A DNA stretch of 64,000 bases from assembly GCF_003086795.1 (NCBI RefSeq), contig NZ_CP026003.1, positions 1,570,777 through 1,634,776 of the forward strand, read 5' to 3'. How positions within the stretch are numbered: the stretch's first letter is position 1; each line of letters opens with the position of its first letter. Source of the DNA: Stenotrophomonas sp. SAU14A_NAIMI4_5 (GTDB taxonomy: Bacteria; Pseudomonadota; Gammaproteobacteria; Xanthomonadales; Xanthomonadaceae). Under the pieces are notes generated by a model, which did not search any database, had not been told where the DNA came from, and worked only from the letters and a program-made list of their open reading frames with translations. The position numbers and the translations under genes were made by a program. Positions 8,158 to 14,452 of the stretch are shown in pieces.

Positions 8158-9453
<1,296 letters not shown>

Positions 9454-9475
9454 CTAGCAGAGCGACCCTGAGCGC

Positions 9476-9500
9476 CCGGCCACGCATCGCATGGCCGGGA
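9476..9500. terminator. Hairpin between rcnB-like gene and rnt
   Basis: CCCGGCCA and TGGCCGGG are separated by nine bases. It lies 3' of the RcnB-like gene on the minus strand. There is no U-tract, so terminator function is only a possibility. Confidence 0.35.
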
Positions 9501-9513
9501 CGCTGTGCACGGG

Positions 9514-9831
9514 TCAGCGGCGTGCCAGCACCACGTCGGCGATGACGCCGGTGGCCACGGCAATCAGCACGTAACGGCCGTCGACCTTGCGCCATTCCTG
9601 GCCGCGGGCGGGGGCGTGCAGGCCATGGTGGCGGTAATCGCGGACGTGCTCGCCGCGGTGGTCACGGGCGAGCTTGTGGCCGCGACGGGGCGGATCGCGA
9701 CGGTCGTCGTGGTGATCCTTGTGGCCGTGGTGGTCGTCGCGCCCACCGGCGCCATAGGGAGCGGCCATCGCGGGCGAGACGGCGGTGGCCAGCAGGGCCA
9801 GCGAAAGGGTGGCGGCAATCAGGCGCTTCAT
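9514..9831 (-). CDS. RcnB-family small secreted protein
   Basis: About 105 residues from ATG 9831, preceded by CGGAG. A signal peptide (MKRLIAATLSLALLATAVSPAMA) is followed by a His/Asp/Arg-rich region (RDDHHGHKDHHDDRRD) and the RcnB-like C-terminus (WRKVDGRYVLIAVATGVIADVVL). RcnB in E. coli is a periplasmic protein affecting nickel and cobalt efflux; many proteobacterial paralogues have no assigned metal. The His cluster suggests metal binding. It lies 130 bp after hvfX in the same direction, so a functional link to metal handling is possible but may be coincidence. Confidence 0.8.
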   Translation of the reverse strand: MKRLIAATLSLALLATAVSPAMAAPYGAGGRDDHHGHKDHHDDRRDPPRRGHKLARDHRGEHVRDYRHHGLHAPARGQEWRKVDGRYVLIAVATGVIADVVLARR

Positions 9832-9963
9832 GGGGCAACTCCGGGGGAAGGACGTGGTCATCGAGGCCACGGATCCAGCATCGGATTTTTTTGATGAATA
9901 GGCGATTAAATCGGCCTTTTGCGCGGTTTCGGTGCGTATCGGCGTGTAACGGGGCCGACGCGA

Positions 9964-10464
9964 CTACCGGGGCGCGGTGGTCCGGCCGGCCACCCACGCG
10001 TCCACGCTCAGGCGCCCGGCACCGTTGAACAGCAGCGGCAGCAGCATCGCCATGAACAGCACCGGCAGCTTGAAGTTGCCGAAGCCCTGGTCGCTGATCG
10101 CATAGCCCATCGCCAGATCACCCAGCGAATGCCAGTGCATCGGCCAGTGCACGGCATAGGTGGCCACCACGGTCAGCACCAGCAGGCTCGCCGCGGCGAA
10201 GCGGGTGCCGAGCCCGAACAGCAGGCAGGCCGCGCCGGCCAGCTCGAACCAGGTCGCCAGCTGCCAGTTCACGCCGGCGGGCAGCAGGTCGAACGGGAAC
10301 GGGAACGCGCCCTGCAGTTCGGCAAACCAGTTCTCGCCCAGCAGCTTCTCGCGGCCGGACTCGAAATATTCCCAGGCCAGCAGCAGGCGCAGGCCCAGCG
10401 GCGCCAACCACGGGCCGCAGCGATCCAGCTGGCCGCGCACGGCGGCCAGGGGCAGGGTGTTCAT
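9964..10464 (-). CDS. hvfX: DoxX-family membrane protein of the RiPP operon (HvfX type)
   Basis: About 166 residues from ATG 10464 (a GTG three bases upstream is the alternative; AGGAG precedes both). Four hydrophobic helices are visible, with the DoxX-type first segment [23 protein letters not shown] and [33 protein letters not shown]. DoxX proteins of this subgroup sit at the end of hvfABC/gig/buf operons and are thought to help handle the mature metal-binding peptide at the membrane; the mechanism is not settled. It follows hvfC by 27 nt and is most likely co-transcribed. Confidence 0.82.
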
Positions 10465-10491
10465 CACGGGGGGAACTCCTCGTTGGGGGTA

Positions 10492-11247
10492 TCAGGCCAC
10501 GGCGGGCAGCGGGCCGATCACACCGGCCTGCAGGAACTGCTGCAGCAGCTGGGTGCCAGGTTCGATCAACGCATCGGCGTCGAGGTGGTGCAGGGTGGCG
10601 AGCTGCTGCAGCTGCTGCCCGCCGGTGGCTCCCGGCGCCTCGTCGATCAGGATCAGCAGGTGCGCGGCCAACGGGCTGAGCTGGGCGAAGCGCACCACGC
10701 CATCGCCGTCGCGGCGGACCAGCAGGCCGGTCGGTTCGGCCGCAGGGGCGACCGGTGCGTCATCGGCGCCGAGGCGGTGGACCGGCCACGCGTACAGCAG
10801 CGGCCAGGCCAGCGGTGAGCAGCGCAGCGGTTCCTGCAGCGGGTCGATGCCCGGGGCCGGTGGCAATGGCTCGGCCGCACGCTGGTACAGATCGGTTTCC
10901 ACCCACTCGTAGTGGGCCAGCTCGGCCAGCGCCGGGTGCGGCAGCTCGGGCTGTGCCTGCAGCCAGTGCACGAATTCGGCCGCCACCGCGGTGAACAGCG
11001 GCGTGCGTGCGCGGTGGTGGGCGAAGTAGTGGCGGACCAGCTCGGCCCAGGCCGCTTCGCCGAGCAGGCGCACGCAGACCGGGAAACTGTTGCCGAGCAG
11101 GCCCAGCAGGTTGCTGGACAGCAGCCGCTGGTAGACCGCGACCCGCCGCGGGTCGAGGTCGGCCGGGGCCGCCACCTGCTGCGGGTCGCGCAGGTGCGCG
11201 GTGAATGCATGCTGCTGCGCGCGCAGGCGCTCGGGCGCATCAGCCAT
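10492..11247 (-). CDS. hvfC: HvfC-type RiPP maturation partner (DUF2063)
   Basis: 251 residues. The N-terminal helical module ([53 protein letters not shown]) is the DUF2063 putative DNA-binding-like domain. In MNIO systems it works as a partner or precursor-recognition subunit for the DUF692 enzyme. The C-terminal half is a winged-helix-like region ([16 protein letters not shown]). Its ATG overlaps the end of hvfB by 8 nt, indicating translational coupling. DNA binding is the old family label and should not be read as function here. Confidence 0.85.
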
Positions 11248-12115
11248 GGGCGACCTCGCGCGGTGTGCCCTGCAGACGGCGGATGGTACGCAGCTCGCCC
11301 TGCAGTTCGGCGTAGGGCGGGAAGTTGAAATCGCGTTCCAGCAGGGTCGGGCGCGGCCCGAAGCGGGCGTAGCTGCGCTCCAGCAGCGCCCACACCGGGT
11401 CGATCACCGCACTGCCGTGGGTATCGATCTTCAGGTCGGGCGCCTCGTCCAGGTGGCCGGCCACGTGCACGCAGACGATGCGCTGCGCGGGCAGCCCGGC
11501 GATGAAGGCGTCGGCATCGTAGCCATGGTTGCAGGCGTTGACGTACACGTTGTTGACGTCCAGCAGCAGGTCGCAGTCGGCCTCGGCCAGCACCGCGTTG
11601 GTGAAGGCCAGTTCGTCCATTGCCGGCTGCGGGGCCAGGTAATAGGACACGTTCTCCACCGCGATGCGGCGGCCCAGCAGGTCCTGCACGCGGGCGATGC
11701 GCGCGGCGGTATGGCGCACGGCTTCGTCGGTGAAGGGAATCGGCAGCAGGTCGTACAGCTGGCCGTCGTCGCTGCAGTAACTCAGGTGCTCGCTGTACAG
11801 CGGCACGCGGTGGCGCTCCAGGAAACGGCCGACCTGCTGCAGCAGCTGGGTATCCAGGGGGGCGCTGCCGCCCAGCGACAGCGACAGGCCATGGCAGCTC
11901 AAGGGGTGGCGCCGGGCCAGTTCGTCCAGGGCATCGCCGGCCGGCCCACCGACGTTGATCCAGTTTTCCGGCGCGCATTCCAGGAAGTCAAAATCGCCGG
12001 CCGGGGCGTCGTGCAGGTCCTGCAGCAGCGCACGCCGCAGGCCCAGCCCGACGGCCGCCGCAGGCAGCGGCAGCCGTGGGTGGACGACGCTGGCGGCAGC
12101 GTCAGTGCTTGGCAC
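11240..12115 (-). CDS. hvfB: MNIO-family (DUF692) RiPP-modifying oxygenase, HvfB type
   Basis: 291 residues if GTG 12115 is the start, which matches the usual DUF692 length; upstream in-frame sequence is the shifted frame of hvfA and is not protein. TIM-barrel signatures of multinuclear iron oxygenases are in order: [81 protein letters not shown]. The His, Glu, Asn and Asp positions of the iron site appear present. Relatives oxidise cysteines of a precursor peptide to oxazolone-thioamide or similar groups. It starts 14 nt before the hvfA stop and overlaps hvfC by 8 nt. Confidence 0.9.
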
Positions 12116-12458
12116 CGCACTTGCCTTCGCCGCACTTGCCTTCGGCGGCCTTCTTGTCGCCGGCGGTCTTGGCCTTGGCTTCGGCACCCGCGCCGGCCTT
12201 GGCCTTGCCCTTGTCGGCGCCACACTTGCCTTCGGCGCTCTTGCCGTCGGCACCGCACTTGCCCTCGGCATGCTTGGCGGCGTCACCGGCCTTGCTGTCG
12301 GCGGCCTTTGCATCACCCGCCTTGGCCGCCTGGCCGGCCACCAGGTAGCCCTGGGCAAGGTCGGTCATGCTCAGGGCCGAAGCACTGGCAGTCACGCCCA
12401 AGCCTGCGGCCAGTGCGGTGGCGGTCAGCAGGGAGAGGGTCTTGTTGGAACTGCTCAT
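12102..12458 (-). CDS. hvfA: HvfA-type RiPP precursor with four EGKCG motifs
   Basis: 118 residues from ATG 12458, with a strong AAGGAG site upstream. An N-terminal signal peptide ([22 protein letters not shown]) is followed by [14 protein letters not shown], which resembles the conserved leader segment of HvfA-like precursors. The rest is low-complexity Ala/Lys/Gly sequence carrying EGKCG four times; the only cysteines are C68, C79, C109 and C114. In Haemophilus HvfA the EGKCG cysteines are converted by HvfB/HvfC to oxazolone-thioamide units that bind copper. The neighbours hvfB-hvfC-hvfX support the same role here. Export by Sec after or with modification is inferred from the signal peptide. 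Confidence 0.88.
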
Positions 12459-12540
12459 CGGTCGTACTCCTTGGGTGGTGGGCGGGCGCCCGGGGTGAAA
12501 CGATGATGCTGCGATCGTACTCAAGGAATCCTCGCCGAGA

Positions 12541-12558
12541 CCTCAAATTTTCGTGAGG
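12541..12558. promoter_or_regulatory. Palindrome upstream of hvfA, candidate operator
   Basis: CCTCA-N8-TGAGG lies 83-100 bp upstream of the hvfA start, in the region where its promoter is expected. The same AAATTTTCGTGAGG sequence recurs 87 bp further upstream with a degraded left arm. No regulator can be named from the sequence. Confidence 0.35.
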
Positions 12559-12712
12559 TTTGCCGCAGGCGGGAAGGGGGGGCGGGCACGGCATCCACGC
12601 ATGGCGTGGATCTACCACCGGCCGGCAATTCAAATTTTCGTGAGGTTTGCCGTAGGCGGGAAGGGGGGGGGCGGGCACGGCATCCACGCATGGCGTGGAT
12701 CTACCACCGGCC
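12543..12712. repeat. Direct duplication of ~81 bp upstream of hvfA, each copy ending in a GTAG stem-loop
   Basis: Copy 1 is 12543-12623 and copy 2 is 12630-12712. Both read TCAAATTTTCGTGAGG, TTTGCCG(C/T)AGGCGGGAAG, a run of seven or nine G, CGGGCACGG, and an inverted stem-loop ending in CTACCACCGGCC. The copies differ by one base and by G-run length, so the duplication is recent. A third GTAG element in the opposite orientation follows at 12715-12738. Confidence 0.9.
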
Positions 12713-12714
12713 CA

Positions 12715-12738
12715 GTAGATCCACGCCATGCGTGGATG
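12715..12738 (+). repeat. SMAG-type GTAG stem-loop
   Basis: GTAG followed by ATCCACGC-CAT-GCGTGGAT. Together with the inverted copy at 12681-12704 it makes a facing pair between phoU and hvfA. Confidence 0.85.
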
Positions 12739-12757
12739 AATGCCCGGATCGCGCGTA

Positions 12758-12789
12758 CAAAAAAGGCCCCTGTCATGCCGACAGGGGCC
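12758..12789 (-). terminator. Rho-independent terminator of the pst-phoU operon
   Basis: GGCCCCTGTC and GACAGGGGCC form a perfect 10-bp stem with a 5-base loop; on the minus strand it is followed by TTTTTTG. It lies 33 bp after the phoU stop. Confidence 0.9.
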
Positions 12790-12821
12790 CCCGGACGCGT
12801 TTCCGCTGTTGCAGCGCAGTA

Positions 12822-13529
12822 TCAGACGTGGTCGGTGCTCGACGTCTCGTCGCGCTTCTCGCGCGGCGGCAGCGGCTGCTCACCGTGCACCAGGAACCAC
12901 ACGTTCTCGGCGATGTTGGTGGCGTGGTCGCCCACGCGCTCCAGGTTCTTGGCCATGAACAGCAGGTGGGTGCATGGGGTGATGTTGCGCGGGTCTTCCA
13001 TCATGTAGGTCAGCAGCTCGCGGAACAGCGCGGTGTACTGCGCGTCCAGGCGGGCGTCGTCCTGGCGCAGGGCGATGGCGGCTTCGGCGTCGTTGTCGCG
13101 GTAGGCGGCGATGGCGCGGCGCACCTGCTGCGCGGCCAGGCGGCCGAGGGCGCGCAGGCCCTGGATCTGCGGCAGCGGCGGCACCTTGCCCAGCGCGATC
13201 GAACGCTTGGCCACGTTCGCGGCGTAGTCACCGATGCGTTCGATGTCGGCCGGGATGCGCAGGCCGGCCAGGATCTCGCGCAGGTCGCGGGCCATCGGGC
13301 CACGCAGGGCCAGGCGCATCACGTCGTGGCTGATCTGCTGCTCCAGCTGGTCGATGGCTTCATCGTTGGCGATGATGCGGTGGGCGGCGTTCTCGTCGCG
13401 CTTCTCGATGACGTCCATCGACGCCTCCAGCTGGGCGACGGCCATCTCGCCCATGCGCACGATTTCGGCCACCAGGCGCTGCTGCTCTTCGTCGTAGCTC
13501 TTGACGATGTGGTCGTTGGGAAGATTCAT
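12822..13529 (-). CDS. phoU: Phosphate signalling protein PhoU
   Basis: 235 residues, all-helical, with two PhoU repeats. Each carries the metal-binding-type motif (RDLREILAGLRIPADIERIGDYAANVAKR near residues 85-115 and FMAKNLERVGDHATNIAENVWF near 190-210). PhoU links the PstSCAB transporter to PhoR, keeping the Pho regulon off when phosphate is plentiful. It is last in the pstSCAB-phoU operon, 65 bp after pstB. A longer reading frame upstream of ATG 13529 is only the shifted frame of pstB. Confidence 0.96.
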   Translation of the reverse strand: MNLPNDHIVKSYDEEQQRLVAEIVRMGEMAVAQLEASMDVIEKRDENAAHRIIANDEAIDQLEQQISHDVMRLALRGPMARDLREILAGLRIPADIERIGDYAANVAKRSIALGKVPPLPQIQGLRALGRLAAQQVRRAIAAYRDNDAEAAIALRQDDARLDAQYTALFRELLTYMMEDPRNITPCTHLLFMAKNLERVGDHATNIAENVWFLVHGEQPLPPREKRDETSSTDHV

Positions 13530-13594
13530 GGTCTGCAATCCGGGTAGAGCCAGGCTGCGCCTGGCTGGGACATGTGGCGAGGGGACGACACCAA

Positions 13595-14452
13595 TCAGCC
13601 GAAACGACCGGTGATGTAGTCCTCGGTCTGCCGCTGCGAGGGCTGCGAGAAGATCACTTCGGTACGGTCGTGCTCGATCAGGTCGCCCAGGTACATGAAG
13701 GCGGTGTAGTCGGACACGCGCGCTGCCTGCTGCATGTTGTGGGTGACGATGACGATGGTGTACTCGTGCTTGAGCTCTTCCACCAGCTGCTCGATGCGGC
13801 TGGTCGAGATCGGGTCCAGCGCCGAGGTCGGCTCGTCCAGCAGCAGCACCGACGGGCGCAGGGCCACGGCACGGGCAATGCACAGACGCTGCTGCTGGCC
13901 ACCGGACAGGCCCAGGGCGCTCTGCCCCAGCTTGTCCTTCACTTCGTCCCACAGCGCGCCCTGGCGCAGCGCCTGCTCGACGCGGTCGGCCATGTCGGCC
14001 TTGCTCAGCTTCTCGTGGTGGCGGATGCCGTAGGCCACGTTCTCGAAGATGGTCATCGGGAACGGCACCGGCTTCTGGAACACCATGCCGACCTTGCTGC
14101 GCAGGCGGTTCATCGGGTACTTCGGCGAGAGGATGTTCTCGCCGTCCAGCAGCACCTCACCACGCGCTTCCAGCTTCGGGTACAGCGCGTAGATGCGGTT
14201 GAAGATGCGCAGCAGGGTCGACTTGCCGCAACCGGAGGGACCGATCAGCGCGGTCACGCGCTTTTCCGGGATCTCAAGGTTGATGCCCTTCAGGGCGTGG
14301 AACTTGTCGTAGTAGAAGTCCAGACCACGCGCGGCCAGCTTGACCGGCGACGGCGTGTGCAGGTTCTCGTGCGAGGCCGGCACCGCGATGCGCTGCATGG
14401 GCACGGCGTTGGAGAGGTCGTTCATGGCGTTATCCACGGAAAGGTCAGTCAT
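13595..14452 (-). CDS. pstB: Phosphate ABC transporter ATP-binding protein PstB
   Basis: 285 residues from ATG 14452 (MTDLSVDN). Walker [13 protein letters not shown], PstB-type [22 protein letters not shown], signature [14 protein letters not shown], Walker [15 protein letters not shown]-loop [15 protein letters not shown]. It drives phosphate import with PstC/PstA. The first 30 or so residues are a weakly conserved extension. The start overlaps the pstA stop by 8 nt. Confidence 0.97.

Follow-up and report, generated by a model that had tools for sequence, protein, structure and literature searches.

A captophorin-type hvfABCX operon of Stenotrophomonas shares a promoter element with a methionine sulfoxide reductase locus

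The window analysed here is a 64,000-nucleotide stretch of the chromosome of Stenotrophomonas sp. SAU14A_NAIMI4_5, a single-contig genome of 4.57 Mb. It contains, at positions 12458..9964 of the minus strand, a complete hvfA-B-C-X operon, and the promoter element upstream of hvfA is shared with the msrB-dipZ-msrA locus of the same genome. As an operon it is unexceptional, belonging to the widespread Buf_EGKCG/oxazolin/"captophorin" family, an already known operon type; the shared element is the new part of the analysis. By analogy with characterised relatives, the product is very probably a small exported peptide with cysteines converted into copper-binding rings. The explanation favoured overall, with a probability of roughly 0.78, is a periplasmic Cu(I)-buffering peptide that would be induced together with msrB-dipZ-msrA. 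No report of a captophorin operon in Stenotrophomonas or of its link to msr appeared among the papers listed by literature searches, in which subscription journals were thinly covered. The features of the operon are as follows (window positions).

12521..12556, minus strand: 36-bp promoter element TCACGAAAATTTGAGGTCTCGGCGAGGATTCCTTGA, also present at the msrB-dipZ-msrA/two-component locus
12102..12458, minus strand: hvfA-type precursor, ATG start, 118 aa, NF050137
11240..12115, minus strand: hvfB-type MNIO/DUF692 enzyme, GTG start within the 3' end of hvfA; PF05114, NF003818, 3BWW
10492..11247, minus strand: hvfC-type partner, DUF2063 and NGO1945 C-terminal domain; PF09836, PF22106, NF050145
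9964..10467, minus strand: hvfX-type DoxX membrane protein; PF07681, NF050144
12543..12712, strand not assigned: direct repeat, 89-bp x 1.9, repeating the upstream half of the 36-bp element

The 36-bp element upstream of hvfA and msrB

The element was first recognised as a conserved block in the aligned upstream regions of hvfA, where 62 nucleotides separate its downstream end from the ATG. The 36-bp pattern was searched, with at most three mismatches, in the genomes of 111 relatives, 67 of them of the same genus. In the source genome it occurs in two places, upstream of hvfA and upstream of msrB. The element was present in 57 of the 111 genomes, all belonging to the same genus (57/67); the reversed pattern, used as a control, gave no match in the 111 genomes, and the number of chance matches expected with uniform bases is about 4e-5 per genome. 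All 30 element places that were fetched as loci precede either msrB (21) or hvfA (9). The hvf and msr genes share this promoter element, and co-regulation of the operon with msr is, judging from the sequence, quite likely.

Within the element, the words TTGA, GYGA and NTGA follow each other at 11-bp steps, a spacing typical of OmpR/PhoB-type sites. The core TTGAN7GYGAGGATTC, with one mismatch allowed, gave two exact places in the source genome (hvfA and msrB) and two places with one mismatch. The search with a 16-bp core matched exactly twice, both times at hvfA, once with one mismatch (msrB) and at four places with two mismatches. The last four, three of which were viewed, were treated as chance matches because the reversed control gave four at up to two mismatches. 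In the 89-bp direct repeat, a palindromic ATCCACGCATGGCGTGGAT repeat and the element's upstream half (CTCACGAAAATTTGAA) are both copied, and a second half-site lies at C1:1583405-1583420 of the source genome; this copy is probably driven by the repeat and not needed for function. Palindromes resembling ATCCACGCATGGCGTGGAT were also observed at window 12580-12740, and the same palindrome is contained in a tandem array at window 8158-8799 (77-bp unit, 8.3 copies, 97% matches).

The element at the msr locus is followed by genes for MsrB, with a start that by eye resembles a twin-arginine translocation (Tat) signal, a DipZ-like protein (likewise assigned by eye) and MsrA. Both MsrB and MsrA pass curated cut-offs, and the TlpA half of the DipZ-like protein matches ResA-type models below the cut-off. 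An OmpR-type response regulator and a histidine kinase are encoded divergently from msrB, with the element between the response regulator and msrB.

Distribution of the element and its candidate regulators

The histidine kinase was found in 58 of the 67 same-genus genomes, and its distance to the msr element was 792-829 nucleotides in all 22 genomes measured. At least one element copy (msr, hvf or both) with at most three mismatches is held by 57 of the 58 kinase-bearing genomes, and the 58th (G050) has an msr copy with four mismatches. Nine same-genus genomes are without the kinase: dipZ is missing as well from eight of them, and the remaining one, G034 (10% contamination), has no more than a 59% relative. 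The two-component system beside msrB has a little better than even odds of being the regulator of the hvfA element.

The hvfA element was found in 40 of 41 searched genomes whose MNIO enzyme at the phoU locus is at least 84% identical to that of the window; 13 further genomes with such an MNIO lay outside the element search. Another 14 searched genomes have a best MNIO of 65-76% identity; no element was detected near the MNIO gene in these, three of which (G015, G016 and G038) are cut by contig ends. G003, which has just a paralogue-type MNIO, and G052, which gave no more than a weak match, lie outside this deeper-branch set. In addition, 24 operons, 21 of them from deeper branches, were inspected one by one. 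An extracytoplasmic function (ECF) sigma gene lies directly upstream of the precursor, with no element, in eight of them, all deeper-branch, two carry the element and one carries a version with seven mismatches. The ECF genes are 88-91% identical to the gene of S. rhizophila GN_RF2.1, and the one in G074, being the GN_RF2.1 locus itself, is 100% identical. Neither an ECF gene nor the element was observed upstream at L195, L196 and L197 (genomes G031, G042 and G067) and in deeper branches.

An ECF signature upstream of the precursor occurs in 14 of 80 named loci, nine of which are from Lysobacter or Arenimonas. At E <= 1e-30, an orthologue of the ECF gene was present in 3 of the 111 genomes and absent from all 40 hvfA-element genomes, and the sister-species ECF gene has no orthologue in the source genome. 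Another ECF query gave seven weak matches in the source genome, the best with 31% identity and an E value of 1e-8. The interval from hvfA (12458) to phoU (12822) is only 363 nucleotides, which leaves no room for a dedicated ECF gene upstream of hvfA. NrsF-type anti-sigma control was also considered and rejected; NrsF has no match in the source genome, which is a difference from Buf1/Buf2.

In other bacteria, gene sets of these kinds are under different regulators. Exposure of Haemophilus to hypochlorous acid (HOCl) switches on msrAB and the hvf genes through RpoE2 (PMC7907618), meningococcal sigma-E drives an hvf-type operon and msrA/msrB (PMC2893595), sigma-F of Caulobacter drives a DUF2282-DUF692-DUF2063-DoxX operon (PMC3511200), and CusSR of E. 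coli induces MsrPQ under copper (PMC9302797). The hvf-msr pairing thus appears conserved, with the regulator replaced. The hvfA element probably arose by a single gain. In the simplest reading, this clade first lost the ECF gene and then brought hvf under the msr control element. The chances are about even that the clade lost the adjacent ECF gene, kept in the sister species and in some other Lysobacteraceae, and gained the msr element, a phosphorelay thereby rebuilding the hvf and msr regulon which an ECF sigma factor runs in Haemophilus and Neisseria.

Several observations weigh against the explanation favoured overall. The co-occurrence of element and kinase is mostly a matter of physical linkage, because the two are neighbours. 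The kinase and response regulator lie below every curated cut-off among the best 25 models, including the cztS/silS/copS, copper/silver regulator and HprR models. As a single gain is probable, the 40 element genomes do not represent 40 independent events, and the one exception among the 41 genomes, G048, has an hvfA element with seven mismatches. Neither ECF gene nor element was found in 13 of the 24 inspected operons (G016 being cut by a contig end), so a swap of ECF gene for element is not the whole story. Finally, the precursor misses the HvfA equivalog NF050188, with 22.7 bits against a cut-off of 95.

The main rival, tentative but to be taken seriously, sees in the element either a sigma promoter of the ECF type or a site for some unlinked regulator, and not a two-component site. 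The absence of an orthologue of the hvfA-adjacent sister-species ECF gene from the 40 hvfA-element genomes, the position of the element between response regulator and msrB, and the 11-bp steps of its words argue against it, whereas the seven weak ECF-query matches in the source genome and the ECF sigma factors that run both gene sets in Neisseria and Haemophilus argue for it. The element words GTGAGGATT and CGTTGA, moreover, partly resemble the meningococcal -35 and -10 sequences, with a spacing that differs from the published one (PMC2893595).

The precursor, its probable modification proteins and related operons

The original prediction of a complete four-gene hvfABCX set on one strand, with overlapping or closely spaced genes, is borne out by the coordinates and the curated models. 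The gene order, 5' to 3' on the minus strand, is precursor, MNIO enzyme, DUF2063 partner and DoxX protein; hvfB overlaps hvfA by 14 nucleotides and hvfC overlaps hvfB by 8, a gap of 24 nucleotides separates hvfC from hvfX, and AAGGAG precedes the hvfA ATG. The operon is flanked by phoU and rnt in all 33 Stenotrophomonas-type loci compared (the window and 32 others: L033-L061, L064, L069 and L099), and DoxX (HvfX), a common though not universal member of such operons, is present in 31 of them (tblastn, E <= 1e-4).

The 118-aa open reading frame has, as predicted, four EGKCG motifs behind a signal peptide, which by eye is Sec-like with cleavage at ...ASA|LS. It is followed by the leader, a Lys/Ala-rich spacer, the four motifs and a C-terminal GAKH. 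Two motifs are single and two form a tandem pair, a Cys-less ADGKS separates the single ones, and all cysteines of the precursor sit in the four motifs. The precursor passes the HvfA-family domain NF050137 with 29.0 bits (cut-off 19.5). The EGKCG DNA pattern (second codon GGY) has seven matches in the 4.57 Mb genome, four in the window precursor and three in a single paralogous precursor, and the reversed pattern has none; the concentration of the motif in the precursor is more than chance. Across 23 aligned precursors, the four EGKCG columns show no variation, and most leader positions show little or none. An AlphaFold model of the precursor based on 23 sequences showed two helices and no strands at low confidence (mean pLDDT, the predicted local distance difference test, 45.6; pTM, the predicted template modelling score, 0.13). 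The earlier description of the precursor as distinct is weak, as all 33 Stenotrophomonas-type loci encode four to six EGKCG motifs (four in 19, five in 2 and six in 12) and the same leader.

The identities given earlier to the other three genes (DUF692/MNIO, DUF2063 and DoxX) hold, and all three products pass curated cut-offs. The MNIO enzyme matches PF05114 (2e-101), the HvfB model NF003818 (416 bits, cut-off 360) and the solved structure 3BWW (E 2.8e-78). It has the residue contexts LRR 26-28, DVNN 186-189, DTH 231-233 and RDF 261-263, and RR, DVNN, DTH and RDF are also present in the alignment with 3BWW. Matching positions, related to the published numbering by sequence context only and not by alignment with FonB or HvfB, are assigned to substrate gating, iron site 3 and the catalytic base (PMC13097082, PMC13419390). 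The HvfC partner matches NF050145 (254 bits, cut-off 142) as well as Pfam PF09836 and PF22106, with a weak match to 3DEE (E 4e-5), and HvfX matches NF050144 (148 bits, cut-off 80) and PF07681.

The GTG start of hvfB (12115), which falls in the last EGKCG of the precursor gene and has GAAGG upstream, is conserved in 33/33 Stenotrophomonas-type loci. In the same loci, the glycine codon GGT is used in the last EGKCG in 33/33 cases and in 31/125 of the earlier copies. The MNIO frame extends further upstream (374 aa in the window) and is open across hvfA in many relatives; its reading as a real N-terminal extension was rejected on account of the conserved GTG, preceded by GAAGG, and of the GGT bias in the last motif, which indicate where hvfB begins. 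A supposed inner TGA in the MNIO of G099 and G108 was not confirmed, as no internal stop appeared in the tblastn alignments covering query residues 23-283.

A related MNIO was detected in 132 of the 150 genomes searched, and the closest named one, at 98%, is that of Stenotrophomonas cyclobalanopsidis. The source genome has a second EGKCG operon on contig C1 at ~1285.5 kb, with genes for DoxX, a precursor in which EGKCG is fused to EF-hands (EF-hand_5), an MNIO (64% identical), HvfC and a ferric-reductase-like protein. A quick tree of MNIO sequences placed the window enzyme in a 34-row clade without EF-hands, and grouped the paralogue and four same-genus loci of its type with Pseudomonas EF-hand loci. 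Divergent from the EF-hand-type operon, on the plus strand from 5404 to ~8885 of locus L148 (C1:1282500-1292000), lie genes for an alpha/beta-hydrolase-like protein (by eye), a TlpA-like protein (50% to the TlpA part of DipZ) and an apparent response regulator and kinase. This second operon thus also adjoins an apparent two-component system and a thiol-redox protein.

A gene with an RcnB domain lies between hvfX and rnt (window 9831..9514, minus strand). It was rejected as a fifth operon gene, being present there only in the window and S. cyclobalanopsidis among the 33 Stenotrophomonas-type loci. A scan for structured RNA found no Rfam family at the gathering threshold in window 9400-13600. 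A recent plasmid origin is not indicated, because every one of the 352 matching plasmid records is below 60% identity. Locus L055 (JAHREJ010000007.1), titled Bacillus subtilis, contains a Stenotrophomonas-type operon with an MNIO identical to that of G062; this record is probably contaminated or mislabelled.

Proposed function and comparison with known systems

What is read from the sequence is the set of four genes with its order, overlaps and families, and also the common upstream element; the steps of maturation, export and copper handling are taken from characterised relatives. The operon is very likely to serve captophorin maturation. HvfC would help to present the precursor in the cytoplasm, and HvfB, with its iron cluster and O2, would convert each of the four EGKCG cysteines by oxidation into a 5-thiooxazole (-4 H per cysteine). 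The modified peptide would be exported by the general secretory (Sec) route and buffer excess Cu(I) in the periplasm or at the surface, with HvfX in a putative assisting role in the membrane. In this Stenotrophomonas clade, the common element suggests induction together with msrB-dipZ-msrA under copper and/or hypochlorite-type envelope stress; the OmpR-type two-component system encoded divergently from msrB would be the most likely inducer.

The original prediction named an oxazolone-thioamide as the product, which is outdated. The structure of Haemophilus oxazolin was revised to 5-thiooxazole by alkylation-assisted nuclear magnetic resonance (PMC13097082), and the group that first described it accepts the revision and describes HvfB as a mixed-valent di-iron enzyme that requires HvfC (PMC13419390). 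Since the revision of Haemophilus HvfA is in print and the peptides are homologous, four 5-thiooxazoles are expected on the window peptide. That its cysteines instead become oxazolone-thioamides, as first described for Haemophilus, is very unlikely: the original assignment still stands in a table of PMC12452194, but two groups have revised it and the window HvfB has the Arg-Arg and Asp-Phe contexts of the 5-thiooxazole-forming Lys-Cys enzymes.

The predicted copper-binding role is supported by the curated models and close parallels in the literature. Gonococcal gonophorin, fontiphorin and the oxazolin of Haemophilus all contain 5-thiooxazoles, copper binding is reported for fontiphorin and gonophorin (PMC13097082), and bufferins improve growth under copper (PMC12452194). 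Protection against copper is, by this analogy, the likely main role. It is rather unlikely that the peptide mainly defends against oxidants such as hypochlorite, by sacrificing thiolates or by stopping copper-catalysed methionine oxidation, with copper binding secondary; the promoter shared with methionine-sulfoxide repair and the HOCl induction of the H. influenzae hvf genes (PMC7907618) would fit such a role, but the copper binding of characterised EGKCG peptides and the benefit of bufferins under copper speak against it. It is highly improbable that the peptide is a methanobactin-like chalkophore secreted to scavenge copper, to which an exported precursor and MNIO maturation would also be suited, as no copper importer, exporter or TonB receptor was found among the scanned neighbours (RcnB-like, RNase T, PhoU), no wider search having been made.

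The common promoter makes the vague "probably copper" concrete: captophorin and periplasmic methionine-sulfoxide repair would answer one signal. If two unrelated types of regulator independently join the same gene sets, the role of 5-thiooxazole peptides, called open in the available text of PMC13097082, becomes approachable via regulation. A replacement of ECF factor by phosphorelay, if true, would point by convergence to a single functional envelope module, made up of 5-thiooxazole copper peptides and methionine-sulfoxide repair, against copper plus oxidant damage.

The fontiphorin (fonABC) and gonophorin (ngoABC) systems have in common with the window operon an MNIO, PME1 (DUF2063), an EGKCG precursor and the Arg-Arg and Asp-Phe contexts of the MNIO (PMC13097082). 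However, fon is described in the available text of that paper as MNIO, PME1 and precursor only, with no DoxX, and the window operon has DoxX; the Neisseria operon includes an ECF sigma gene (PMC2893595), which the window operon does not.

EGKCG motifs, signal peptide and core genes are likewise those of Buf_EGKCG, whose precursors consist of 17-residue repeats (type 1) or EF-hand fusions (type 2) (PMC12452194). The paralogue at C1 ~1285.5 kb is of type 2. The window precursor fits type 1 loosely, with one tandem pair, the other motifs single, ADGKS between them and a low-confidence model that shows no beta-helix but speaks neither for nor against one. By regular expression, 29 of 122 loci, the majority of them Lysobacter-like and many located at the same phoU/rnt site (L062-L112 and others), have a further EGKCG-type motif after the final EF-hand of the precursor; the available text of PMC12452194 does not describe this order. 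The bufferins Buf1 and Buf2 (DUF2282; 6 and 12 Cys) share the MNIO, DUF2063 and DoxX core and the copper role. In contrast to both, the window precursor has no DUF2282 match or any other Pfam match, and unlike Buf1, the window MNIO misses the BufB equivalog NF050167 (267.6 bits, cut-off 310).

The CusSR-MsrPQ system of E. coli is similar in the two-component control of a periplasmic Msr linked to copper (PMC9302797), but the Msr enzymes here are MsrB, a DipZ-like protein and MsrA. Nontypeable H. influenzae, with hvfABCX and oxazolin, has the same four families and a signal-peptide EGKCG precursor, and the hvf-msr pairing is alike, its hvf genes being co-regulated with msrAB by RpoE2 under HOCl (PMC7907618). 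Its HvfA has six EGKCG motifs (PMC13419390), whereas the window precursor has four and lies below the HvfA equivalog cut-off. Moreover, in place of an orthologue of the sister-species ECF gene, the window operon has a promoter element shared with a locus beside a two-component system.

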